Position numbers and translations under genes: made by a program. Under the pieces are notes generated by a model. The model saw only the letters and a list, made by a program, of their open reading frames with translations, was not told where the DNA came from and searched no databases. Below are positions 2,757 to 54,268 of a DNA stretch of 64,000 nt, in pieces. Within the stretch, counting starts at the first letter, position 1; each line of letters starts with the position of its first letter. The DNA is from Nitrospira sp. (GTDB lineage: Bacteria; Nitrospirota; Nitrospiria; Nitrospirales; Nitrospiraceae), in NCBI GenBank assembly GCA_022842445.1, contig JALHPO010000002.1:496001-560000 (forward strand), in the 5' to 3' direction.

Positions 2757-2999
2757 TCAGCGATCCGGTTTTACTAGCGAAGACCGACTGCGCATCCATT
2801 CGTGAATATCCCGGCGGAGAAAGCGCCAATGTTTTCCGATTTTCGAGGCCGGCAATTCGCCGATTCGTGCGAGCTTGTATACCGTGGATTTCGGTACCCG
2901 CAGAAACCGGGCCACATCCATGATCGTCAAGATGTCGCCGTCTCCCGTGAAGGCAGAATCCCGATCGAGCGCTGTTGTTTTGGAAGCGGCATCATTCAT
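2757..2999 (-). CDS. Small excisionase/MerR-like helix-turn-helix DNA-binding protein
   Basis: An 80-residue protein with one HTH_17-type winged helix domain (residues about 23-70). It reads MDVARFLRVPKSTVYKLARIG, then LPASKIGKHWRFLRRDIHEWM, the standard helix-turn-helix plus wing of the excisionase-like family. Such proteins act as small transcription factors or recombination directionality factors; nothing here identifies the target. The ATG at 2999 lacks a Shine-Dalgarno sequence and lies about 3 nt from the predicted start point of a strong sigma-28-like promoter, so the message may be leaderless. It lies between the Cache/MCP gene and cheY. There is no integrase nearby, which argues against a phage role. 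Confidence 0.8.
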   Translation of the reverse strand: MNDAASKTTALDRDSAFTGDGDILTIMDVARFLRVPKSTVYKLARIGELPASKIGKHWRFLRRDIHEWMRSRSSLVKPDR

Positions 3000-3009
3000 G
3001 GCAACTGCA

Positions 3010-3036
3010 TTATCGGCATCACCGCGGACATTCTTA
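3010..3036 (-). promoter_or_regulatory. Candidate sigma-28 promoter for the HTH gene
   Basis: The minus strand carries TAAG, a 15-nt spacer and GCCGATAA. The -10 is a perfect match to the classical FliA consensus and the -35 matches three of four core bases. The start point would fall near 3002, almost on the ATG at 2999. Confidence 0.5.
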
Positions 3037-3170
3037 AGTGCCGCGAAGCGATTCTCGTACTTATCACATGAAGATTAGGAGCCGCGGGCTCGGAATCAGC
3101 CGGACGGTCGCCCCTGCTCTTCAATCCCGTCATACAACGGACGCTCGCCGCATCATTGCGGCTCGAGTCG

Positions 3171-4214: not shown

Positions 4215-4832
4215 TCACGCCGGCGTGAGCCCCTGGCCCCGTCTGGCACGCAGCCGTTCGGCTTGCGTACGAAGGATGTGCCGGATAAGGTGTTCTTGAT
4301 CGTCTGCGTTGAGATCCACAAATTCCGTAGCCAGCGCAAATCCATGGCCTTGAGGATCGGGAGACGATCGGATGATCTTGATAACCGTCTGAACCGGCGT
4401 AAAGGGCGGCAGAATTAGTTTTAGCGCCAATCGGTCGCCGGCATGGAACTGCCGGGGCGACGTAAAGCTCACCCCGCCGCCGCTGATATTGACAGCCGTC
4501 ACACGCGCAATATCCATACAGCCCGGATGCGCCTTGGCTAACGTCTTCAACAGGACCTCGAGCAACCAGTCCACCTTCATCATCCATGGCACCAGCGAAG
4601 AATCGACCAGCGCCTCCCCGGAATGCGCCAAAAGTTCCGCGGTAGGCTTTCCCACCGCAGCGGCAATGACCTCGTCGGTTACCGGCGCACTGACGGACGC
4701 TGGCATCTCGGCCGATTCATCCAGCAACCGATATTCGAGTAACAGATTGTCATCGATGCGAAGCCATTCCCGGCGATCCTCCGAAGCCGTATCACCCGCT
4801 GTAGGCTGATTGGTCATGGCTGAAAGAGACAT
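4215..4832 (-). CDS. PilZ-domain c-di-GMP receptor
   Basis: A 205-residue protein with a PilZ domain in its C-terminal half and a PilZ-like motif near the N-terminus. The RxxxR element appears as RREWLR (residues about 20-25). The (D/N)xSxxG element appears as NISGGGVSF in the middle. These motifs bind c-di-GMP in known PilZ proteins. The unusually long spacing suggests an inserted helical segment between them (residues about 35-120). The ATG at 4832 has AAAGGA 6 nt upstream. The gene starts 18 bp after the stop of a diguanylate cyclase gene, so cyclase and receptor are probably co-expressed and may act on motility. The partner is unknown. Confidence 0.8.
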   Translation of the reverse strand: MSLSAMTNQPTAGDTASEDRREWLRIDDNLLLEYRLLDESAEMPASVSAPVTDEVIAAAVGKPTAELLAHSGEALVDSSLVPWMMKVDWLLEVLLKTLAKAHPGCMDIARVTAVNISGGGVSFTSPRQFHAGDRLALKLILPPFTPVQTVIKIIRSSPDPQGHGFALATEFVDLNADDQEHLIRHILRTQAERLRARRGQGLTPA

Positions 4833-4850: not shown

Positions 4851-6371
4851 CTATGCCACGGCGCGCACGACGGCAGCATGCGGACGCCCGAGACGATGAT
4901 CGGCATAAACGGCCACCCGATTACGCCCTTGAGACTTGGCTTCATACAATGCGGAATCAGCTGCCGCAATCCACCGGCCGATGCTGTCGATCGATGAATC
5001 GTGAAGCGATGCCACGCCGAAACTGGCGGTAATCCGCACCGACCCGTCATCGAGATCGAATGCGCGGCGCTCGATCTCGGCGCGAATCCGTTCAGCGAGC
5101 GCTTGCGCTTGGCCAAGATCAGTATGAGGCAGGACGACGGCGAACTCCTCCCCTCCATACCGGCCAACGCTATCGACCTCGCGAACTCGCTCCTGGACCA
5201 GCGCTGCTACGCGTTCGAGTACTCCGTCTCCGGCTACATGCCCAAGGCGGTCGTTGATGCTCTTAAAATAGTCGAGATCCAACAGCAGCAAACAGGCGGA
5301 GGACCCATAGCGAAGTCCGGCGTTGAGTTCCCGCTGAAGCGGTCCATTGAGTGCGCGCCGGTTGAGCACCCCGGTCAGGGGATCCCGCAAGGCCAACTCC
5401 TGTATCTGGCCATGCACGTCGGCATTGCCCAAGGCCACTGCAAGCGCAGCGGCAATCGTCGCCAGCAACTGCTGTTCTTGTCCGGTGTACGGGCGCTCAC
5501 GTGTCCGCTGGACATGCAAAATCCCGACTCCGTGCGAACCGATAGCCAGCGTGACCTCATGGACACTGACCGCGTGGCCATCCTGGCTTTGGTCAGAACC
5601 CCCAGCTGCCGGCACAAGCGCCAGACTCGAGCTACGCAGAGGACGAATCGTCCCGTGCCACGATGTTGCCTTGCCGGTCATCCGACCGAGCCGGTTCAAC
5701 AGTCGTGAACGTAACGCGTCCGCCCCTTCAACGTCTTGCGCCTGCGACCATGTCCAGGCCTGATCGGGATTGGCTCGAACCAGTCCAACCAGATCGGCGG
5801 CAATCAAGGACGGCAGTCCCGCAAACAAGGCCTTCACGATAGTCTCGGCCTCCAGCGTCCCCGAAAAGGCTTGCGTCAGCTGATGGAGATACGACAAGTG
5901 GCGGTTGCATTGCGCAAGTTCATCACGGTCTTGTGCCAGCGCCTGATTGGTCCGTGCCAGCTCATCGGACAGATCCCGCATAAAGAGGAACGTCCGTCGA
6001 TTAGCGAGGCCGCTGTGGACCGCTTCCAGGAGTCTTGATGCCGGACAGGGCCATGCAAGGTAATCGTGGGCCCCCTTCCGCAGAAGTCGCGCCGTGTGGT
6101 CTGCGCCGATATCCGGCCCGATCAGGATGACGCAGAGATCTCGCCGATGTTTGAAGACACGGTCGAGCACCTTCACGGTGTCCGCAAAGCGCGCTCCGAC
6201 CTGAAACAGCAACACAGGGACATCCGCAGGCAACCGTGTCTCGACTGAATAGGCTCGCCGGTTGAAGACATCCACCTTCATACCGGGAAGCTTTGTCCAG
6301 ACCTTCGCCCGACAGACTCTAGAATCAGCCACCAGCACAATGTGCATGCCGTCAGTCACCGCTATACCCAT
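4851..6371 (-). CDS. Diguanylate cyclase with degenerate receiver, GAF and GGDEF domains
   Basis: This enzyme makes c-di-GMP from two GTP. Residues about 9-125 have a receiver-like fold pattern but lack the usual acidic pocket and phospho-Asp, so it is probably a pseudo-receiver. A coiled-coil stretch (residues about 125-155) is followed by a GAF-like region (about 160-325) and a GGDEF domain (about 335-490). The active site is GGEEF. An RxxD inhibitory site (REVD) sits exactly five residues before GGEEF, so product inhibition is likely. DPLTGVLNRR and FGVASL are other family landmarks. The start may instead be the ATG at 6347. It lies downstream of fliT and directly upstream of a PilZ gene. 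Confidence 0.9.
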   Translation of the reverse strand: MGIAVTDGMHIVLVADSRVCRAKVWTKLPGMKVDVFNRRAYSVETRLPADVPVLLFQVGARFADTVKVLDRVFKHRRDLCVILIGPDIGADHTARLLRKGAHDYLAWPCPASRLLEAVHSGLANRRTFLFMRDLSDELARTNQALAQDRDELAQCNRHLSYLHQLTQAFSGTLEAETIVKALFAGLPSLIAADLVGLVRANPDQAWTWSQAQDVEGADALRSRLLNRLGRMTGKATSWHGTIRPLRSSSLALVPAAGGSDQSQDGHAVSVHEVTLAIGSHGVGILHVQRTRERPYTGQEQQLLATIAAALAVALGNADVHGQIQELALRDPLTGVLNRRALNGPLQRELNAGLRYGSSACLLLLDLDYFKSINDRLGHVAGDGVLERVAALVQERVREVDSVGRYGGEEFAVVLPHTDLGQAQALAERIRAEIERRAFDLDDGSVRITASFGVASLHDSSIDSIGRWIAAADSALYEAKSQGRNRVAVYADHRLGRPHAAVVRAVA

Positions 6372-9066: not shown

Positions 9067-9891
9067 TTACTGGAGCAGCGCCAATGCCTGCTGCGGCAGG
9101 GTATTCGCCTGCGCAAGCACGGCAATGCCGGTCTGCACCAAGACCTGGTTTTTCGTGAACTGGGACGTCTCGTACGCGATATCCGCATCGCGAATACGGG
9201 ACTCCGCAGCCGTCAGGTTCTCAGACGAGATCGTCAGATTCGCGATCGTCGCTTCGAACCGATTCTGGAGTGACCCATACTCGGCGCGAGAGGTCGCCAC
9301 GGAGCTGATGGCGCTGTCGATGTTGCTCAACGCGCTCTGCGCATTGGCCGACGTGGACACGTTCACGCTGCTGATACCCAGCGTGGAAATCGTCAGCTGA
9401 TTCAGATCCATCGACAACGTGTTGCCTGTTCCGCTCTTGAACCCGACCTGGATGCTGAAACTGATCGAGCTCCCGCTGGTCAGAGCCTGTCCGTTGAATT
9501 CGGTCACCTGTGCGATGCGGTCGATTTCCGAACGCAGCGCCAGGAATTCCTGATCGATGTACGACCGTTCGGTAGCGCCCACCGTTCCGCTCGCGGACTG
9601 GGACGCCAGTTCCCGGAGCCGGCCGAGCAAGTTGCCGATCGTGGCAGCCGCGCCGTCCGCGATTTGCGTCAAGCTGATGCCGTCCGACGAGTTCCGCACC
9701 GCTTGATTGATGCTGCGAATGTGGGCGCGCAAGGTTTCGGACAGACCGAGGCCGGCGGCATCATCCGCCGCGCGGGTAATCCGGAGACCGGACGACAACC
9801 GCTCGACCGAACGACCCAACTGGTCGGTGCTGGCCGCCAAGTTGCGCTGAGCCGAAATGGATGCAGGATTGTTGTTAACGATAAGTGCCAT
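9067..9891 (-). CDS. fliC: Flagellin
   Basis: Flagellin is the filament subunit, exported through the flagellar type III system. The 274-residue protein has both conserved ends: N-terminal MALIVNNNPASISAQRNL with LSSGLRITRAADDAAGL, and C-terminal RIRDADIAYETSQFTKNQVL with LPQQALALLQ. The central variable region is very short (about residues 135-190), so this is a minimal flagellin of D0-D1 domains only. It is the only flagellin gene in the window. A strong AAGGAGGAAGG ribosome site, a sigma-28-like promoter and a GGA-loop hairpin precede it. Many Ser/Thr residues in the centre could carry O-glycans made by the adjacent island; this is inference. Confidence 0.97.
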   Translation of the reverse strand: MALIVNNNPASISAQRNLAASTDQLGRSVERLSSGLRITRAADDAAGLGLSETLRAHIRSINQAVRNSSDGISLTQIADGAAATIGNLLGRLRELASQSASGTVGATERSYIDQEFLALRSEIDRIAQVTEFNGQALTSGSSISFSIQVGFKSGTGNTLSMDLNQLTISTLGISSVNVSTSANAQSALSNIDSAISSVATSRAEYGSLQNRFEATIANLTISSENLTAAESRIRDADIAYETSQFTKNQVLVQTGIAVLAQANTLPQQALALLQ

Positions 9892-9992: not shown

Positions 9993-10019
9993 GTATCGGA
10001 CGATCCGGAAGGGACTTGA
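9993..10019 (-). promoter_or_regulatory. Sigma-28 promoter of fliC
   Basis: On the minus strand TCAAGTCC, an 11-nt spacer and TCCGATAC match the FliA consensus (TAAAGTTT, 11 nt, GCCGATAA) at 5 and 6 of 8 positions. The predicted start point is near 9985, giving a leader of about 95 nt. The same TCAAGT form of the -35 recurs at csrA, flgM and both HD-GYP genes. Confidence 0.78.
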
Positions 10020-35162: not shown

Positions 35163-35888
35163 TCAGCGAATAGGAAACACGTCGGCAGACTTTTGAGCGG
35201 TCCACTGCGTAATGGCGTCGCGGACAGAACCACCCCACCCTCGATATTCGATGAATTCCAATCGGTCGAATTGGAATTCGATCCCGATAACATTGGCGTC
35301 GTCTCCGCCTTCTGTATTTTTGACGACCCCTGCCAAGTTTGTGACATGGCCTAAGCTGGGCAGTTCAAATTCCAGATGAATCGTGGCGCCAGGCCTGAGC
35401 CAGACCGGAACCTTTGCCAACGCGATGCTGCACCCGCCCAGACTGAGATCTTTGACAAGCCCTCCTGCATAGTCCGCCGGTGACAAGACCGATACGGCGT
35501 GGGACCCGAAATCCGCCCTCGTCAGCAGGGCCGGCTCGCTGGATGAGACACGCGCATGCTTGCGCAAGTGCATCTCTTCCACGGTCTTGGGAAACGCAAG
35601 AAACAAGATCGGCACCGGCGCCAAGAGCAGATCCCGAATCGCAGTCTTGTAACCGACCAGCTTTCCCTCGAACAGATAACTGACCGTACAGGATGTGCCT
35701 GCCAGAATATCGGTCGTATGATTGAGCTGCGACGGCAATTCACACACCAGCCACGCATGTTCTTTCCAGCCCAGCAACGTACTGCCGTACATGACCTTCT
35801 GCTGATCAAGCGAGAGTGAGATCTTGAGCGGCAACCCGACGCTCAAAAACGACGTTGATACGGGTGTGGATGTCATGACCTCATTCAT
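35163..35888 (-). CDS. YcgR-like flagellar brake protein (PilZN plus PilZ)
   Basis: A 241-residue protein. The N-terminal 105 residues form a beta-rich domain like the YcgR N-terminus. The C-terminal PilZ domain has the c-di-GMP motifs LRKHARVS (RxxxR) near residue 109 and DLSLGGCSI (DxSxxG) near residue 146. YcgR proteins bind c-di-GMP and slow the motor by contacting FliG/FliM or MotA. It overlaps the HD-GYP gene by ATGA, so the receptor and a c-di-GMP phosphodiesterase are made together, probably from the sigma-28-like promoter at 37198-37224. Confidence 0.85.
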   Translation of the reverse strand: MNEVMTSTPVSTSFLSVGLPLKISLSLDQQKVMYGSTLLGWKEHAWLVCELPSQLNHTTDILAGTSCTVSYLFEGKLVGYKTAIRDLLLAPVPILFLAFPKTVEEMHLRKHARVSSSEPALLTRADFGSHAVSVLSPADYAGGLVKDLSLGGCSIALAKVPVWLRPGATIHLEFELPSLGHVTNLAGVVKNTEGGDDANVIGIEFQFDRLEFIEYRGWGGSVRDAITQWTAQKSADVFPIR

Positions 35889-37123
35889 GCCGCCTCCTTA
35901 TTCAGATAGAGAGTTGGATCGATCCCGCTGCTGCACGGATCTTTGACGGCAGTGATGCTCCGCCGGGGTGACACCGCCTGCTGCGAGAGATCCACCTCTT
36001 CGGGACTCGACCGGACCGTATTCCCCGCGCTCTTCACGATCAGTACGAACGGTTCCAATGGCGCACCACGGTTTGTCTTCTGAACAATGGCCGTCTCGCC
36101 GCTGTCTAGTTCGACGACCGAACCGACGGGATACACGCCCACGACATGAATGAATCGTTCCACCACCGAGGAATCCAGATGCCCTTCCAGCGCCAGTCGA
36201 TAGAGAAACTGCAGCGCCTGATGAGGCGTCCGCCCCTTGTGATAGCAGCGGTCGCTCGTGATCGCGTCATAAATATCGACGACGGCGGCGATCAGCCCGA
36301 ATTGACTGAGCTCATCCCTGACCCGCCGCTGAGGATAGCCTGTTCCATCGATCCGCTCATGATGTTCCAGCGCCGGCCGCAAGTAGGTCTCCCCCAGCCC
36401 GGTCGTGCAGGACAGCACTTCAACGCCCCGCAACACATGCTGCTTCATGATTTCCATTTCGTCAGGCTCAAACCGGCCCGGCTTGTTCAAAATCTTGATC
36501 GGAATTTTCATCTTGCCGATATCGTGCAGCAATGTCCCGACTCCGATCTGATGCAACTCCGGTCGATCGAAGCCAAGATCGCGACCCAATGACATCGCCA
36601 GCAGCGAGGTGTTCACGGAGTGGTAAAAGGTATACTCATCAAACTGCTTCAGCCGGGACAGGCTGGTCAAGGCATCGGCGTTGCGGAATACGCTTTCCGT
36701 CATGTCGGACACAACACGATTGACGGAATCCATATTGAGCGCACGCCCCAATCTGACATCGTGCATCGCATCGTGAACAATGGTTTTGGCCGCGGCATAG
36801 ACTTGCCTGGCGATCGGCAGTTCCTCTTCAAACGACACCGCTGTCGTCCCCGATGAAACCGCGTCGCCGATTTTGATCGACTCGACACTGGAAGACTCGA
36901 TGGGCGCACATCGATCGCCCAGCGGCTCCTCAGAGACCGCTGACGCATCGCCGTCGATGGCCACTTCGACCGTTTGAATCCCAAAGGCTTTCAACTGTTC
37001 GATTTGTTCAGATGACGTAATCGCCATACGGTGCCGGAAGAAGGGACTGGTCAGCCAGGATCGATCAATCCTCTCCACACGCATGCCCGGTTGCAATTGA
37101 TCGACCCCTATCCACTTCTTCAT
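35885..37123 (-). CDS. HD-GYP domain c-di-GMP phosphodiesterase
   Basis: A 412-residue protein with an N-terminal DUF3391-like domain (MKKWIGVDQLQPGMRVERID) and an HD-GYP domain. Key motifs are intact: HSVNTSLL, the metal-binding HDIGKMKIP near residue 201, HHERIDGTGYPQRR near 254 (the GYP signature) and a downstream DIYDAITSDRCYHKGRT. It should hydrolyse c-di-GMP. The ATG at 37121-37123 opens the conserved N-terminus; an upstream ATG at 37171 is possible. Its promoter (37198-37224) is back to back with that of the plus-strand HD-GYP gene. Confidence 0.92.
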   Translation of the reverse strand: MKKWIGVDQLQPGMRVERIDRSWLTSPFFRHRMAITSSEQIEQLKAFGIQTVEVAIDGDASAVSEEPLGDRCAPIESSSVESIKIGDAVSSGTTAVSFEEELPIARQVYAAAKTIVHDAMHDVRLGRALNMDSVNRVVSDMTESVFRNADALTSLSRLKQFDEYTFYHSVNTSLLAMSLGRDLGFDRPELHQIGVGTLLHDIGKMKIPIKILNKPGRFEPDEMEIMKQHVLRGVEVLSCTTGLGETYLRPALEHHERIDGTGYPQRRVRDELSQFGLIAAVVDIYDAITSDRCYHKGRTPHQALQFLYRLALEGHLDSSVVERFIHVVGVYPVGSVVELDSGETAIVQKTNRGAPLEPFVLIVKSAGNTVRSSPEEVDLSQQAVSPRRSITAVKDPCSSGIDPTLYLNKEAA

Positions 37124-37197
37124 GGTCTGGGCCTTGTGATTCGCAGCCTTTCGTCGCAATGCCGCATACATAGATGAGACAAACCTTCCCCAGGACG

Positions 37198-37224
37198 CTA
37201 TCGGGAAATACTCGAAAAACTTGA
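37198..37224 (-). promoter_or_regulatory. Sigma-28 promoter for the HD-GYP/PilZ pair
   Basis: Minus strand: TCAAGTTT, an 11-nt spacer, then CCCGATAG. The -35 matches the FliA consensus at 7 of 8 positions, the -10 at 6 of 8. The start point is near 37190, about 67 nt before the ATG at 37123. Confidence 0.75.
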
Positions 37225-37259
37225 GCGCACCGGGTCTTCTGCCCGGCGGCCGTATGCAA

Positions 37260-37286
37260 TCAAGTTCCTCTCACAGCAGCCGATAC
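37260..37286 (+). promoter_or_regulatory. Sigma-28 promoter for the plus-strand HD-GYP/histidine kinase pair
   Basis: Plus strand: TCAAGTTC, an 11-nt spacer, then GCCGATAC (7 of 8 for the -10, 6 of 8 for the -35). The start point is near 37294, about 47 nt before the ATG at 37341. It lies 35 bp from the divergent promoter on the other strand. Confidence 0.8.
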
Positions 37287-37340: not shown

Positions 37341-38594
37341 ATGACAGTGAACGGCCCGCTCAAACACATTTCCATCGGTCAACTGACTCCAGGCATGTTC
37401 ATTGTCGAAGTCGATGTGCCTTGGTATCGCTCTCCATTGCTCTCTCATAAACGGCTGATCCAGGATGCCGAAACCATCCAAGCGATGAAACAGTGCGGGA
37501 TTCGAACCGTGACCATCGATATCAGCAAAGGAGCCGATGTCCGCGCTGATGCAAAGGAAGAACGGCCGGCTAAGATAGAAACAGACTCACGTAGAACCAT
37601 TGCCGCAGAGACGCCCACGCATCCCACGCAAGCGGACACCGGCTCAGTACAAACGCTGTACAGAGATGCGCACGAGACAGTAGAGCGGATATTTGCTCAG
37701 CTTGAACAGGGCGTGACTCCCTCTCACGCCGCAACCAAAGCCGTGGTGTCCAATGTACTGATGCGGATCATTGATGATCGCGCCGCAGTCATGACCCATC
37801 TCGCGCTTCAAAAGCTCAAGCAGTTCGACGATTCATTGGCGACGCACGCGCTCGATACCTGCATCCTGTCACTGGTCGTCGCCGTCGAAATCGGACTCGA
37901 TGAAACGGCACAGGCCCAGCTTGGCACGGGCGCCCTGCTCCATGACGCAGGTTATGCGCGGCTCCCCCGCAACCTGGTCCGGAAACGCCAGACATGCACC
38001 GACAACGAGCGCCTATTACTGCAACAGCACCCTGCCCTGGGAACGCCCCTGCTCACGGAAACAGCCGGATTCGATGCGGCGGTGATCAGGATCGTCGCTG
38101 AACATCATGAGCGCGAAGATGGCAGCGGATTTCCCTCCGGACTGAAGCACGACGGCATTTCCACACTGGCCATGATCGTGGGAATCGTCGACTGGTACGA
38201 CGGGATGGTGAGCCGTCGAGGTGGGCGGGCAGCTATGCTGCCGTCTACCGCGGTCCAGCGGCTGTTCGTAGCGGGACAACGAGGGCAGTTCAAGAACACG
38301 CTCGCCGAATCCGTTATTCGAAGCATCGGCATCTATCCGATCGGGAGTCTGGTCCTCCTGAATACCGGCGAACAAGCGGTGGTCGTCGGAATCAATCCTG
38401 AGCATCGGCTGAAACCGCTCGTCAAGATTATCGCCGGACCGCGGGGAGAGTCGCATGTGACTCCCATGCCGACCGACCTCGCCGCGCAGACGCAGGACCG
38501 AAAGGCGCGTGCCGTGCTGCGTGGGCTCGATCCAGTCCAGGAGCATGTCAACATTGCCCTGTATCTCGATGAGATCTCATCGGAGGCAGCCTGA
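37341..38594 (+). CDS. HD-GYP-related protein with altered catalytic motif
   Basis: A 417-residue paralogue of the minus-strand HD-GYP protein. It has the same N-terminal DUF3391-like start (HISIGQLTPGMFIVEVDVPW) and a C-terminal HD domain. The HD pair is kept (LLHDAGYARLP, near residue 199) but the conserved lysine of HDxGK is replaced by tyrosine. GYP is replaced by GFP in EHHEREDGSGFPSGL. The metal ligands HD and HH remain, so weak activity or a receptor role is possible. The stop overlaps the kinase start as TGATG, coupling the two. The ATG at 37341 begins the conserved domain. Confidence 0.85.
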   Translation: MTVNGPLKHISIGQLTPGMFIVEVDVPWYRSPLLSHKRLIQDAETIQAMKQCGIRTVTIDISKGADVRADAKEERPAKIETDSRRTIAAETPTHPTQADTGSVQTLYRDAHETVERIFAQLEQGVTPSHAATKAVVSNVLMRIIDDRAAVMTHLALQKLKQFDDSLATHALDTCILSLVVAVEIGLDETAQAQLGTGALLHDAGYARLPRNLVRKRQTCTDNERLLLQQHPALGTPLLTETAGFDAAVIRIVAEHHEREDGSGFPSGLKHDGISTLAMIVGIVDWYDGMVSRRGGRAAMLPSTAVQRLFVAGQRGQFKNTLAESVIRSIGIYPIGSLVLLNTGEQAVVVGINPEHRLKPLVKIIAGPRGESHVTPMPTDLAAQTQDRKARAVLRGLDPVQEHVNIALYLDEISSEAA

Positions 38595-41422
38595 TGACAC
38601 AACAGCATCCAGAACAACGCGCGGCCCTGCCTCACCCGGTTGCTCCGGCTGCCGCGCCGGCCATGACCGGCGTCCTGGACGGTCTTCCGTTCGGAGTGGT
38701 GCTGCTGAACAACGGATTCCTGATTCAGGGGATTAATGCAGAAGGCGCGCGGTTGCTCGGACGGCAGCAGTCCTCTCTGTTCGGCGCATCGTTTCCTGAA
38801 ATCTGGTCTGCCCTGACAGAATCGGATGCCGCTGCCGTGACGGGCCGATTGCGCACCGTCGCTGAGACACATGAGCCGGTGCCTCATACTCACACCCGCT
38901 GCCGCCTCGGAACAGCCGCCTCCATCCCTGTCGAATGGACATGCCAGGCGATCGCTCAGGAAGGACGGCCCGGCCTGATGATCGGCCTTCGCGATTGTTC
39001 CCAGGAGGAACAGCTCCAGGAAGAACGCAATCGCCTGGCGGCCATTGCAGAGGAAACCCCGTCCCCCATCATCGAGATGGATCGGCATGGGCAGGTGCTC
39101 TACGCAAATCCGGCCATGATCACCTGGCTCACGACATTGGGCTACAACGCCGACGGGATTCCGTGCATCGCGCCGCAGGACCTCCTACAGGTGGTGGCCC
39201 GATGTCTCCAATCCGGCGAATCCGTACGAGGATTGGAAGTCTGCCTTCCTGAAGGCAGTTTCTCATGGACCTTTTGTCCTGTCACAACCCACGGGCTCGT
39301 TCGCGGCTATGCGCTTGATATCACCGGAATCTATGCGGCGCAACAGGAGCTGCGCCGCACTGCCGATCAGCTGCAGGAAAAAAACCGACAGCTCGACAAC
39401 GCATTAGCCGACGCCCAGGAATCCGTGCAGACGAAGGCGGCATTTCTCGCGACGATGAGCCACGAGCTTCGCACTCCGATGAACGGCGTCATCGGGATGA
39501 CCAGCCTGCTGATAGAAACTCCACTGTCGCCCGAACAACGGTCCTATGCAGACACCATTCGCCAATGCGGCGAGGCGCTGCTTTCCCTCATCAACAACGT
39601 GCTCGAATGCTGCAAGATCGAAGCCGGCAAGGTTGAACTGGAACACATCGACTTCAATCTCCGCACTGCCGTCGAAGATGTGCTGGGTCAATTTGCGGAA
39701 CGAGCCGAAGCGAAGGGGCTTGAATTGACGGGGTTAGTCCACGCAGCGGTTCCCACAGCCCTGCGCGGCGATCCCGGCCGCCTGCGCCAAATCCTGACTA
39801 ATCTGGTCGGCAATGCCCTGAAGTTCACTGACAAAGGTGAAGTCACATTGCAGGCCTACCTGGAGAAAGACTCACCGGGTCATTCGCTCATTCGATTTGA
39901 AGTCGTCGACAGCGGCATCGGGATTGCACCGGAGGTGCAGGCCAAATTGTTCAGCCCCTTCGTTCAAGCGGACAGTTCAACCACCAGAAAATATGGCGGC
40001 ACCGGTCTGGGGCTGTCGATTTCGAAACAGCTGGTCGAACTCATGGGAGGTCAGATCGGCATCAACAGTACTGCGGGGCAAGGCAGTACTTTTTGGTGCA
40101 CGATCGGTTTCGCCAAGCAAGCCGACGCGCCGAGCGCCATCCTCCCTTTGGGTGACCTGCATGGGCGCCGGATTCTGATTGTGGACGACAATGAATCGAA
40201 CCGCCTGATCCTCCGCCATCTCGTGACCGGGTGGGGGATGCTCGCGGACATGGCGGAGAATGCGGCCGACGCCTTGCGTCAGGTCATGGAGGCGCATGCC
40301 CGTGGGATTTCTTATGACCTGGCGATCCTGGACGTTATGATGCCCGGGAAAGACGGCCTGGAACTCGCCCGCGAGTTCCGCCAACATCCGGCTGCCGCAG
40401 GCATACGAATCGTGGTACTGACGTCGCTGCTCCAGCGGGGCCACGCCGAGCAGGCCCGACAGGTCGGCGCAATGGGCTATCTGCCAAAACCGGCCCGCCA
40501 TGATCAATTACGCGAGTGCCTCCGTACGGTCCTCGGCATCGCACGCGTCGAGAGAGAGGAGACCCGGCCCGCCGATCACGTATCGCCCCAGCTGGTCACC
40601 AGGCACAGCTTGGCCGACAACCTGCCGCGGCAGCGCATTCTGATCGTCGAAGACAACCTCATCAACCAGAAACTTGCCGTCCGTATGGCGGAAAAATTAG
40701 GCTATCATCCGGATGTCGTCGGCAACGGGAAGGAAGCGCTGGCCGCCTTAGCAAAAGAGGACTATGCGCTGGTCCTCATGGATTGTCAGATGCCGGTCAT
40801 GGATGGATTCGAAGCGACCCGCCTGATCCGGGAACGTGAAACAGCCACCCGCTCCGGACGACAGACCTCGCACATGCCGATCATTGCCGTGACGGCCAAC
40901 GCCATGCAGGGGGATCGCGAGCACTGTCTGGCAGCCGGCATGGACGACTATCTGGCCAAACCGATTCAACTGGACACACTGCGCGCAGTGCTCCACCGAT
41001 GGGCTGCGCCGCCTGCAACCGTCGACGCGCCTCCCTCCCCGGCACAATGCGATGATCGAGGGATCTTCGATGCCGCCCAAATGTTTCACAACATCGGCGA
41101 GGATCACGAGCTCTTTGCGCAGCTGGTCGTGCTGTTTCTCGACCGGCACCAGACCATGCTGGCGGCGATCAAGGAAGGATTGATCAGCGCCGATGCGCTC
41201 GCGGTCAAACATGCGGCCCATGCGTTGAAAGGCACAGCCAGTAATTTGTGTGCGTCGGAGGTCGCCCTGGCGGCAAGCCGTCTCGAAGCCGTCGGCCATC
41301 TGGGCGCCTTGCGCGACGCGCCACCGGTCTATGCGCAATTGGAAATGGAACTACTCCGGCTCGTCCGCGTGCTCGACCGCTACCGGCAGGGGTACAATAC
41401 CGTCACACAATCGGCAGCATGA
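38594..41422 (+). CDS. Hybrid sensor histidine kinase (PAS-PAS-HisKA-HATPase-REC-REC-HPt)
   Basis: A 942-residue BarA-like hybrid kinase with no membrane segment. Domains: PAS-like (residues about 25-140) and a second PAS (about 145-260), coiled coil, HisKA with phospho-His in SHELRTPMNGVIG near 290, HATPase (LRQILTNLVGNALKFTDKGE; GGTGLGLSISKQL), REC1 (DDNESNRLIL; LDVMMPGKDG, Asp near 579), REC2 (EDNLINQK; MDCQMPVMDGFEATR, Asp near 729), and HPt (AHALKGTASNLC, His near 876). This is a complete phosphorelay in one chain, lacking only the output regulator. It is co-expressed with the HD-GYP-like protein, probably under sigma-28. The signal is unknown. Confidence 0.94.
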   Translation: MTQQHPEQRAALPHPVAPAAAPAMTGVLDGLPFGVVLLNNGFLIQGINAEGARLLGRQQSSLFGASFPEIWSALTESDAAAVTGRLRTVAETHEPVPHTHTRCRLGTAASIPVEWTCQAIAQEGRPGLMIGLRDCSQEEQLQEERNRLAAIAEETPSPIIEMDRHGQVLYANPAMITWLTTLGYNADGIPCIAPQDLLQVVARCLQSGESVRGLEVCLPEGSFSWTFCPVTTHGLVRGYALDITGIYAAQQELRRTADQLQEKNRQLDNALADAQESVQTKAAFLATMSHELRTPMNGVIGMTSLLIETPLSPEQRSYADTIRQCGEALLSLINNVLECCKIEAGKVELEHIDFNLRTAVEDVLGQFAERAEAKGLELTGLVHAAVPTALRGDPGRLRQILTNLVGNALKFTDKGEVTLQAYLEKDSPGHSLIRFEVVDSGIGIAPEVQAKLFSPFVQADSSTTRKYGGTGLGLSISKQLVELMGGQIGINSTAGQGSTFWCTIGFAKQADAPSAILPLGDLHGRRILIVDDNESNRLILRHLVTGWGMLADMAENAADALRQVMEAHARGISYDLAILDVMMPGKDGLELAREFRQHPAAAGIRIVVLTSLLQRGHAEQARQVGAMGYLPKPARHDQLRECLRTVLGIARVEREETRPADHVSPQLVTRHSLADNLPRQRILIVEDNLINQKLAVRMAEKLGYHPDVVGNGKEALAALAKEDYALVLMDCQMPVMDGFEATRLIRERETATRSGRQTSHMPIIAVTANAMQGDREHCLAAGMDDYLAKPIQLDTLRAVLHRWAAPPATVDAPPSPAQCDDRGIFDAAQMFHNIGEDHELFAQLVVLFLDRHQTMLAAIKEGLISADALAVKHAAHALKGTASNLCASEVALAASRLEAVGHLGALRDAPPVYAQLEMELLRLVRVLDRYRQGYNTVTQSAA

Positions 41423-42369: not shown

Positions 42370-42843
42370 TTACGACTGAGCCTGCGCGAGGCATTGCGTC
42401 GAGTCTGGTGCGGTGACCGGAAAGAGCGGATGGCGTGTCGGGAACTCGTCCGAGAGCACCAACTGTTTGCACAGCTTGGTGCGTTGATTCATCAGCAGCG
42501 GCCCGCGCAGGTTGGCGGTCATCCGGCCGGGATCATCCGACGGGATGGTCAAAATCACCGCCGTCGCTAAATCGCTCTCCTCACTCCCCTGCACCTCGGC
42601 CAGCGCGTCGTCGGGCACTTGAATGTGATAGTCAGCCAGCAACAGATCCGGGTCGATAATCACGAACGCCAGGGCCGGCTCGTCGAGCGATTGAAGCCAC
42701 TTGAAGGGCGCCTCCGTATCGTGGTCGAGGATCACATACCGGCGGCTTTCAGGAAAACCGAGCAGCCCCGATGGAAAGGTGAGGATACTGTCGTCGTCGA
42801 TCTCGAGCGTGCCGAAACGGCTGGATCTGCACTGTGTGATCAT
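42370..42843 (-). CDS. fliW: Flagellar assembly factor FliW
   Basis: FliW binds flagellin or CsrA in turn. When flagellin is low, FliW sequesters CsrA and relieves repression of flagellin translation. The 157-residue protein has the family motifs TFPSGLLGFPESRRYVIL, APFKWLQSLDEPALAFVIIDP and LRGPLLMNQRTKLCKQLVL. Length is typical. It follows csrA by 12 bp in one operon, the usual FliW-CsrA arrangement outside Gammaproteobacteria. A candidate CsrA hairpin in the fliC leader supports an active circuit. Confidence 0.94.
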   Translation of the reverse strand: MITQCRSSRFGTLEIDDDSILTFPSGLLGFPESRRYVILDHDTEAPFKWLQSLDEPALAFVIIDPDLLLADYHIQVPDDALAEVQGSEESDLATAVILTIPSDDPGRMTANLRGPLLMNQRTKLCKQLVLSDEFPTRHPLFPVTAPDSTQCLAQAQS

Positions 42844-42855
42844 TCAATCCTACTC

Positions 42856-43101
42856 CTATCGCCCTCGACGGCGCGTCCGCTGAACTAGGTGCCGGAACGC
42901 CTCGATCGGGATGGCACTGGTTTTTGCCGCCAGCTGATTTTCGTTGAGAATTCTGGCCTGAACCTCATCGCGATGCACATCGACGGTCCTGGGCGCTTCA
43001 ATGCCGAGGCGAACCTGTCCTCCCTTAGTTCCCAACACGACGACCCGGATATCGGGGCCGATCGTCACGGCTTCTCCACAGCGGCGTGTCAGAACCAGCA
43101 T
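42856..43101 (-). CDS. csrA: Carbon storage/translation regulator CsrA
   Basis: CsrA is a dimeric RNA-binding protein that represses translation by binding GGA motifs. The 81-residue protein begins MLVLTRRCGEAVTIG, with VVVLGTKGGQVRLGIEAPRTVDVHRDEV, the whole conserved core. The C-terminal 25 residues are a basic tail (RTRRRGR) found in the FliW-responsive class. The sigma-28-like promoter at 43140-43166 would make csrA a late flagellar gene. It lies between flgL and fliW. Confidence 0.96.
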   Translation of the reverse strand: MLVLTRRCGEAVTIGPDIRVVVLGTKGGQVRLGIEAPRTVDVHRDEVQARILNENQLAAKTSAIPIEAFRHLVQRTRRRGR

Positions 43102-43139: not shown

Positions 43140-43166
43140 CTATCGGTTATCCATCCGGGGACTTGA
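43140..43166 (-). promoter_or_regulatory. Sigma-28 promoter of csrA-fliW
   Basis: Minus strand: TCAAGTCC, an 11-nt spacer, then ACCGATAG. The -35 is identical to that of fliC. The start point would be near 43132, about 31 nt before the csrA ATG. Confidence 0.75.
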
Positions 43167-47591: not shown

Positions 47592-47897
47592 TTACAGAAC
47601 GGCGTCCGTCAGCACCTGCGTGATGAGCGCGTCCCCTACCTTCCGTCCGCTGACGTCGTAGGTTCCGTTCTCGATCGCCTGCCGGATCCGGTCGAGGCGT
47701 TCGCTTCTGGCCTGATCGGGCTCGTGGGCCATCGCTTGGATCCGTTGTAACTCCTTCGCCTGTCCGGAAATGTGGACTTGGTCCTTGCCGGCCTCCTTTC
47801 GGGAGGGTGAAGGCTTGGCGCCGACGGCATCGGCGTCCTGGACCCCCAGCAACAACTTGGCCAAATGATCCGCTTTCCCGTGACCTGAAACCTGCAT
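47592..47897 (-). CDS. flgM: Anti-sigma-28 factor FlgM
   Basis: FlgM binds FliA and keeps it inactive until the hook is finished, when it is exported. The 101-residue protein is polar at the N-terminus, as is usual for unfolded FlgM. Its C-terminal half carries RSERLDRIRQAIENGTYDVSGRKVGDALITQ, the conserved sigma-binding segment. The gene has its own sigma-28-like promoter (47979-48006) inside the end of flgJ, giving autoregulation. The fliA gene is 5.6 kb away on the same strand. Confidence 0.92.
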   Translation of the reverse strand: MQVSGHGKADHLAKLLLGVQDADAVGAKPSPSRKEAGKDQVHISGQAKELQRIQAMAHEPDQARSERLDRIRQAIENGTYDVSGRKVGDALITQVLTDAVL

Positions 47898-47978: not shown

Positions 47979-48006
47979 GTATCGGTTCTCAGCGGTCTGA
48001 ACTTGA
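47979..48006 (-). promoter_or_regulatory. Sigma-28 promoter of flgM
   Basis: Minus strand: TCAAGTTC, a 12-nt spacer, then ACCGATAC (6 of 8 in both boxes). It overlaps the last codons of flgJ. The start point would be near 47971, 74 nt before flgM. Confidence 0.7.
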
Positions 48007-53515: not shown

Positions 53516-54268
53516 TCATCGCGCCGCCTGCAGAGAGGCCTTCAGCCTCACAATGGCTTTGGTGTGGATTTGACAGACACGCGACTCGGTGACCTTGAGC
53601 ATCTCCCCGATTTCCTTCATGGTGAGCTCTTCGAAATAATACAACGTCAACACGAGGCGCTCCTTCTCCGGAAGATTCTGGATGGCGTCGCCGACGGAAT
53701 CCCGTTCCCGCTCGTTGACCAATGTCGCCAACGGATCGGGGTTGTGGGTATCGGCCAGCATCGTGACGACCTTGGGCTTATCAGGATCGGAAAGATTGAG
53801 ATCGTCGATACTGACGACCACCGCGCCTCTTGCGCGGAGCGTAAAATCATCGAGTTCATCCGGCGACATCTTCAATTCAGCGGCCACCTCTTCATCCTTC
53901 GGCGGCCGCCCCAAGCGATGCATCAGCTGCACCTGCGTCCGTTGCAGCAGCCCGATACGCTCGTGCACTGAGCGCGGAATCCAATCCATCGAACGAATCT
54001 CATCGAGCATCGCGCCACGAATCCGGAATTCGGCGTAGGTCTTGAACTTGGCCTCACGAGACGGATCATACTTATCCATGGCGTCCATGAGGCCGATCGT
54101 GCCGACCGAAATCAAGTCTTCCGCGTCCAGATAGGGCGGAAGACGAAAGGCAAACCGATGGGCCATCACACGGATCACATGGGCGAATTCTTTGATGATT
54201 CGCTCACGTCCGACTTCATCGGTTGAACCGGGTTTCCGCTCTTGCAATGGGGCTGTGTTGCTTATCAT
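53516..54268 (-). CDS. fliA: Flagellar sigma factor FliA (sigma-28)
   Basis: FliA directs RNA polymerase to late flagellar promoters. The 250-residue protein has region 2 (FAFRLPPYLDAEDLISVGTI; GLMDAMDKYDPSREAKFKTY; RIRGAMLDEIRSMDWIPRSV), region 3 (QLMHRLGRPPKDEEVAAEL) and region 4 (LPEKERLVLTLYYFEELTMK with TESRVCQIHTKAIVRLK). All match FliA. flgM, several matching promoters and the flagellin lie in the same window. It follows flhG after 174 bp, a gap with an inverted repeat and no recognised promoter. Confidence 0.97.
   Translation of the reverse strand: MISNTAPLQERKPGSTDEVGRERIIKEFAHVIRVMAHRFAFRLPPYLDAEDLISVGTIGLMDAMDKYDPSREAKFKTYAEFRIRGAMLDEIRSMDWIPRSVHERIGLLQRTQVQLMHRLGRPPKDEEVAAELKMSPDELDDFTLRARGAVVVSIDDLNLSDPDKPKVVTMLADTHNPDPLATLVNERERDSVGDAIQNLPEKERLVLTLYYFEELTMKEIGEMLKVTESRVCQIHTKAIVRLKASLQAAR

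Follow-up and report, generated by a model that had tools for sequence, protein, structure and literature searches.

A divergent pair of probable FliA (sigma-28) promoters joining HD-GYP proteins, a YcgR-like protein and a hybrid kinase in Nitrospira

Is the completion of the flagellum coupled to the control of c-di-GMP in Nitrospira, the central nitrite oxidisers which occur mostly in flocs and biofilms, in the way known from E. coli, where FliA drives both yhjH (pdeH) and ycgR (PMC4183435)? The question is raised by a short intergenic spacer in the stretch of 64,000 nucleotides analysed here (hereafter the window), from which two HD-GYP genes (A and B) are read in opposite directions, A being followed by a ycgR-like gene and B by the gene of a hybrid histidine kinase. 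A previous reading of the letters alone (the sequence-only reading) had placed two divergent sigma-28-type promoters in this spacer and had proposed that completion of the hook would lower c-di-GMP and “release the brake”. A literature search for sigma-28 or c-di-GMP control of Nitrospira motility found no paper; for N. moscoviensis, 33 PilZ-like genes have been counted (PMC11800159). The answer that we consider likely is that the spacer holds a pair of FliA promoters, through which A lowers c-di-GMP beside a YcgR brake, while B and the kinase pass the c-di-GMP state on to a phosphorelay.

The divergent promoter pair and its conservation

Two sites of the sigma-28 type are found in the spacer. 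The site of the A-ycgR unit, on the minus strand (37198-37224), has the form TCAAGTTT-N11-CCCGATAG, with its -35 element at 37224-37217 and its -10 element at 37205-37198, and lies 26 nt from the ATG of HD-GYP-A (37171; an alternative start is at 37123). The site of the B-kinase unit, on the plus strand (37260-37286), has the form TCAAGTTC-N11-GCCGATAC (-35 at 37260-37267, -10 at 37279-37286) and lies 54 nt from the ATG of HD-GYP-B (37341). Both distances to the start codon are normal, and the -35 elements of the two divergent sites are 35 bp apart. When the window was scanned with the consensus TAAAGTTT-N11-GCCGATAA, at a cut-off of at least 13 of 16 matches, this pair was the only result in 64 kb (0.067 expected), and in the whole genome of 3.46 Mb only three sites come within one mismatch of TCAAGTTYN11SCCGATA, namely the pair itself and one site before a PilZ gene. 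A matrix built from 11 FliA-bound promoters of E. coli (sequences from PMC4183435) ranks the spacer sites second and third in the window, where six sites reach at least 15 bits, against 0.28 expected per shuffled window. The pair has, therefore, both motifs at the 11-12 nt spacing of sigma-28 promoters and is rarer than chance, and the two divergent sites with their 35 bp gap, as described in the sequence-only reading, are borne out in their exact coordinates and in their rarity, both in the window and in the genome.

Orthologues of B were found in 29 of 34 relatives from the genus, so that 30 loci were read, our own genome included. For these we used a position-weight matrix derived from fliC promoters only (null distribution with 95% at 6.8 and 99% at 10.7); the fliC upstream regions have a sigma-28 box in 30 of 30 cases. 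With this matrix, the ycgR/A-side site has a counterpart in all 30 spacers, at near-fixed positions, with lower scores (9.3-21.7, individual p up to 0.035). The B-side site, also at near-fixed positions, is seen in 29 of the 30, strongly in 24 spacers and more weakly in five (9-10 bits, p about 0.01-0.02 each); the thirtieth spacer (L062) was missed by the matrix only through a truncated gene model of B, and its site was recovered by an exact pattern. The module also follows its sigma factor, since B is present in 29 of the 31 FliA-positive genomes of the genus (the other two are incomplete, one of them with a B fragment adjoining fliA) and absent from all three FliA-negative ones (G002, G015 and G020); the pair is thus conserved among the relatives and confined to genomes that have FliA. 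Named genomes agree; in that of N. moscoviensis (NZ_CP011801.1; L190), for instance, both sites occur together with the full set of four genes. Conservation of the spacer at fixed positions supports a promoter function, and we regard its two sites as probably genuine promoters for FliA (sigma-28), which would transcribe both units from them. The earlier proposal of sigma-28 control over the two transcription units is, on these sequence-based grounds, upheld by sites which are kept across the genus and by a module which tracks the presence of FliA.

HD-GYP-A, YcgR and the release of the brake

On the minus strand, HD-GYP-A (35885-37171) combines a DUF3391 domain with an HD-GYP domain where all the motifs of a phosphodiesterase are present, that is, the H...HD...H...HH...D metal site (H184, H216-D217, H245, H270-H271-E and D299), the HDxGK motif (here HDIGK) and GYP. 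These catalytic positions are kept in 30-31 of 31 copies; HD-GYP-A is without the Glu that PmGH has at its third-metal position. We predict that A is an active c-di-GMP phosphodiesterase, and this is supported by work on Vibrio cholerae, where those HD-GYP proteins whose HD was not intact had no activity and the presence of these residues went along with activity, a correspondence that can be read either way for B (PMC4212101). A point against the mechanism proposed below is that, in the same organism, deletion of seven HD-GYP genes gave no motility phenotype (PMC4212101). The second gene of the unit (35163-35888, minus strand), which overlaps the stop codon of A (ATGA), encodes a YcgR-like protein with PilZNR and PilZ domains and with the ligand motifs RxxxR and D/NxSxxG intact, and its product would act as a c-di-GMP-dependent brake on the motor. 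In their domains and catalytic motifs, both proteins agree with the intact HD-GYP and the YcgR-like protein previously assigned to this side.

The four genes had been expected to be conserved together, which can be ruled out. Part of the expectation stands, given that the kinase adjoins B in 30 of 30 loci and that ycgR is divergent from B in 29, but A is optional: it is found at the spacer in only 8 of 30 loci, and elsewhere it has moved or is missing. The divergent neighbour of B is ycgR directly in 21 loci, A in eight (with ycgR coming after A in all of them), and neither was detected in one. The conserved core is, consequently, ycgR on one side and HD-GYP-B with the hybrid kinase on the other, the kinase arm being the most conserved half of the module.

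A-like genes (60-70% identity) are present in 23 of the 34 relatives, most of them at other loci and in some cases as tandem pairs. Of the relocated copies with upstream DNA to inspect, nearly all have a sigma-28-type site of their own at a constant distance. The relocated copies group in a single branch of the tree (100/99), outside which the spacer copies fall, and the simplest history is a single relocation of A together with its promoter, ycgR retaining the original one. That copies of A keep the site when they move argues strongly for selection on sigma-28 control, and a promoter which stays with a moved and duplicated gene offers a natural experiment on this point. A is missing altogether from nine FliA-positive relatives (two of these being incomplete assemblies); hence it is not the sole route to brake release, and the species without A must rely on other phosphodiesterases. 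A second A-ycgR pair, on contig C21 of our assembly (G000:C21; L185, L090), was set aside, the contig being 83% identical to, and collinear over 7.5 kb with, Nitrospira G024. The A of this contig groups with the G024 lineage in the tree, and the assembly probably includes DNA of a second organism, to which the contig would belong.

In the mechanism that we propose, the completion of the hook-basal body would lead to the export of FlgM and set FliA free. Free FliA would then transcribe the YcgR-type brake, in this species behind phosphodiesterase A, and, in the opposite direction, the variant HD-GYP B together with the cytosolic hybrid kinase. During filament building A would hold c-di-GMP low, leaving the co-made YcgR unloaded, and a later rise of c-di-GMP (at a surface or in a biofilm) would load YcgR, which would slow or stop the motor at once. 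Each component that this course of events needs is present. It is a sound inference that completion of the hook is coupled to the removal of c-di-GMP, given that the genes of FliA and FlgM both lie in the window and that E. coli follows the same logic with yhjH and ycgR (PMC4183435). As for the release of the brake, A is predicted to supply the phosphodiesterase that it calls for, but the description is incomplete: ycgR shares a transcript with A, so that the brake and its release would be made together and the outcome would be set by the level of c-di-GMP.

The finished flagellum and the control of c-di-GMP are, then, probably linked in Nitrospira as they are in E. coli, with different proteins. 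As judged by promoter sequence and conservation alone, a phosphodiesterase and YcgR would both be under FliA and made after hook completion, from sigma-28-type promoters of the same sequence as in the E. coli class 3 branch, with A absent from some species. The differences lie in the phosphodiesterase, which in Nitrospira is an HD-GYP and not an EAL protein and shares one operon with ycgR, in the co-control of another HD-GYP, a variant one, along with a hybrid kinase and also of a single PilZ gene, and in the lineage, which is unrelated. With an HD-GYP enzyme in the FliA-yhjH/ycgR scheme and a phosphorelay added to it, the Nitrospira arrangement is a variant of a known branch; it would extend the link by which a finished flagellum removes c-di-GMP and supplies the brake from E. 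coli to Nitrospira, where it is built from another enzyme family (HD-GYP in place of EAL). In Pseudomonas putida, bifA is partly FliA-controlled, and FliA raises phosphodiesterase and lowers c-di-GMP (PMC5300878); BifA is another phosphodiesterase, only partly under FliA, and that paper describes neither a pair of divergent promoters nor a link to YcgR nor a kinase arm.

HD-GYP-B and the hybrid kinase

The plus-strand unit begins with HD-GYP-B (37341-38594), formed by DUF3391 and a variant HD-GYP domain, and continues with the hybrid histidine kinase (38594-41422, plus strand), whose ATG overlaps the stop of B and whose architecture is PAS-PAS-HisKA-HATPase-REC-REC-Hpt; no clear transmembrane segment was found in the kinase. 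An HD-GYP gene with a full hybrid phosphorelay kinase had already been recognised here, and this is what we found. The description of B as “degenerate”, however, has to be abandoned: its metal-ligand positions (H169, H201, D202, H230, H255, H256 and D284) are each kept in at least 32 of 34 orthologues, which rules out decay, and it is only the HDxGK lysine that is replaced (by Tyr in 35 of 35). The GYP motif is GFP in 22 of 34 and GYP in 12. B, accordingly, retains the metal ligands of an HD-GYP phosphodiesterase and departs from one at the HDxGK lysine and the GYP tyrosine, and reads as a conserved HD-GYP variant, not a decayed one.

The best solved match of B, both by sequence and by fold, is Bd1817 of Bdellovibrio (PDB 3TM8), followed by PmGH, PA4781 and DvhD; an AlphaFold model of moderate quality (mean pLDDT 66, pTM 0.64) served to confirm the HD-GYP fold only, not ligand geometry. 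Like Bd1817, B is without the HDxGK lysine; unlike Bd1817, it has a full-length G[YF]P motif, DUF3391 and a tie to a kinase. B perhaps works like an HD-GYP receptor and not like a normal enzyme, and in the proposed mechanism it would most likely be the partner of the kinase, either binding c-di-GMP or weakly active, and bring the c-di-GMP state into the phosphorelay. By its invariant change from Lys to Tyr, this kinase-linked HD-GYP points to a class of possible HD-GYP receptors that can be tested.

In the RpfC/RpfG system of Xanthomonas, a hybrid kinase bearing REC and Hpt domains stands beside an HD-GYP gene, the partner RpfG has a REC domain, and RpfC is membrane-bound. On this model, B would be an ordinary active phosphodiesterase merely regulated by the kinase, and both sides of the spacer would only lower c-di-GMP. 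We hold this for possible, though rather unlikely. The HD metal-ligand positions are retained in B, and its kinase-linked relatives outside the genus retain HD and HHE, with the lysine alone replaced (by His or Glu); but the lysine is invariantly lost, the best match in sequence and fold is an unconventional HD-GYP (Bd1817), and B, which consists of DUF3391 and HD-GYP only, has no REC domain for the kinase to act through. The kinase itself differs from RpfC in being PAS-type and apparently cytosolic.

It is also conceivable, if doubtful, that B and the kinase are mainly a device for chemotaxis or for feedback on FlgM, with c-di-GMP removal secondary. In sister genomes within the Nitrospirales (L224, L225, G048/L308), B and the kinase are followed by a REC-HATPase_c_2 protein and by chemotaxis genes (cheY/cheZ/cheA or cheR, in two of these genomes). 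Our own genome has, about 13 kb outside the window (L307:4230-7658; G000:C2 about 482-486 kb), a cluster of STAS, REC-SpoIIE, Hpt, REC-HATPase_c_2 and REC genes adjoining cheB/cheD/cheR, whose parts resemble those of the HptB-HsbR-HsbA switch and whose REC-HATPase protein is related to the one in the sister genomes; in P. aeruginosa, this partner switch acts on FlgM (PMC5085249). The likeness lies in the genes for REC-SpoIIE, Hpt and STAS proteins, located next to chemotaxis genes, whereas the extra REC-HATPase protein is a difference, and the link to B and the kinase is speculative, being made by gene order in the sister lineages only. Against such a role, the REC-HATPase gene of Nitrospira itself is not adjacent to the kinase, its relatives also occur in FliA-negative genomes, and the kinase has an Hpt domain of its own. 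A more specific version, in which B has a non-hydrolytic HD-GYP, serves as a receptor of c-di-GMP and controls the kinase, whose phosphorelay would reach an HptB/HsbR-like switch on FlgM, seems to us improbable; if true, the module would also feed the c-di-GMP state back onto sigma-28.

The probable sigma-28 regulon in the window and beyond

The reading of the spacer as a FliA promoter pair can also be set against its surroundings. The window encodes FliA (53516-54268, minus strand) and the anti-sigma-28 factor FlgM (47592-47897, minus strand; PF04316), the latter with its own sigma-28-type site at 47979-48006 (minus strand). The six best sites of the window by the E. coli matrix stand before a small HTH gene, B, A, cheY-cheZ-motA, flgM and csrA-fliW. 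All on the minus strand, the site at 2568-2595 precedes cheY (2086-2490), cheZ (1443-2072) and motA (516-1286), and that at 43140-43166 precedes csrA (42856-43101) and fliW (42370-42843), while fliC (9067-9891), our positive control, has its box at 9993-10019. Since the best sites stand before flagellar, chemotaxis and module genes, and fliC has its box too, the window contains, together with FliA and FlgM, a coherent late-flagellar regulon.

In 39 genomes of the genus, the exact pattern TCAAGTTYN11-12NCCGATAA has 57 matches, and the 30 that were read lie before flgM (14), B (8), the small HTH gene (4), csrA (2) and other genes (2). That the spacer sites resemble sigma-28 promoters by chance, or serve another sigma factor, the genes not being late flagellar, is very improbable: consensus scans always give rise to false positives, two of the 30 exact-pattern loci lie before genes without an evident flagellar role, and about half of the relaxed-pattern matches in our own genome appear non-functional, but a chance origin is ruled out by the shuffles, by the reversed-pattern control (0 matches against 57) and by conservation at fixed positions in 30 genomes, and the sites co-occur with FliA and travel with gene A. 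A sigma-28 box common to the genus permits regulon prediction in bacteria which are hard to grow or to manipulate genetically.

Several further genes carry sites of this kind. The best E. coli-type sigma-28 site of the window (3010-3037, minus strand) lies 11 nt before the start of a small HTH_17 protein (2757-2999, minus strand; excisionase/MerR-like), whose orthologues in four relatives have the exact site 10 nt before the start, and which is possibly a sigma-28-dependent small regulator. Elsewhere in the genome, a single-domain PilZ gene (L003:1549-1911; G000:C4:275554-275916, plus strand) has a near-perfect site 22 nt before its start, as do 13 of 15 orthologues at 21-33 nt, and no such site was found in its paralogues; by this pattern, the PilZ protein also belongs to the c-di-GMP branch. 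Two stand-alone REC proteins, paralogues of each other (L124, G000:C1:454504; L125, G000:C2:176207), each have a sigma-28-like site upstream, and were set aside as partners of the kinase because, among related genes elsewhere, only that of G005 has a site of this strength, which makes the site lineage-specific at best. A sigma-28-like site also precedes the start of a pentapeptide-repeat protein (L123, G000:C1:161210), by 19 nt. Finally, within the flagellar and chemotaxis cluster of the window, a GGDEF protein (4851-6371, minus strand), a predicted diguanylate cyclase, is encoded together with a PilZ protein (4215-4832, minus strand), and the two could form the opposing side of c-di-GMP control.
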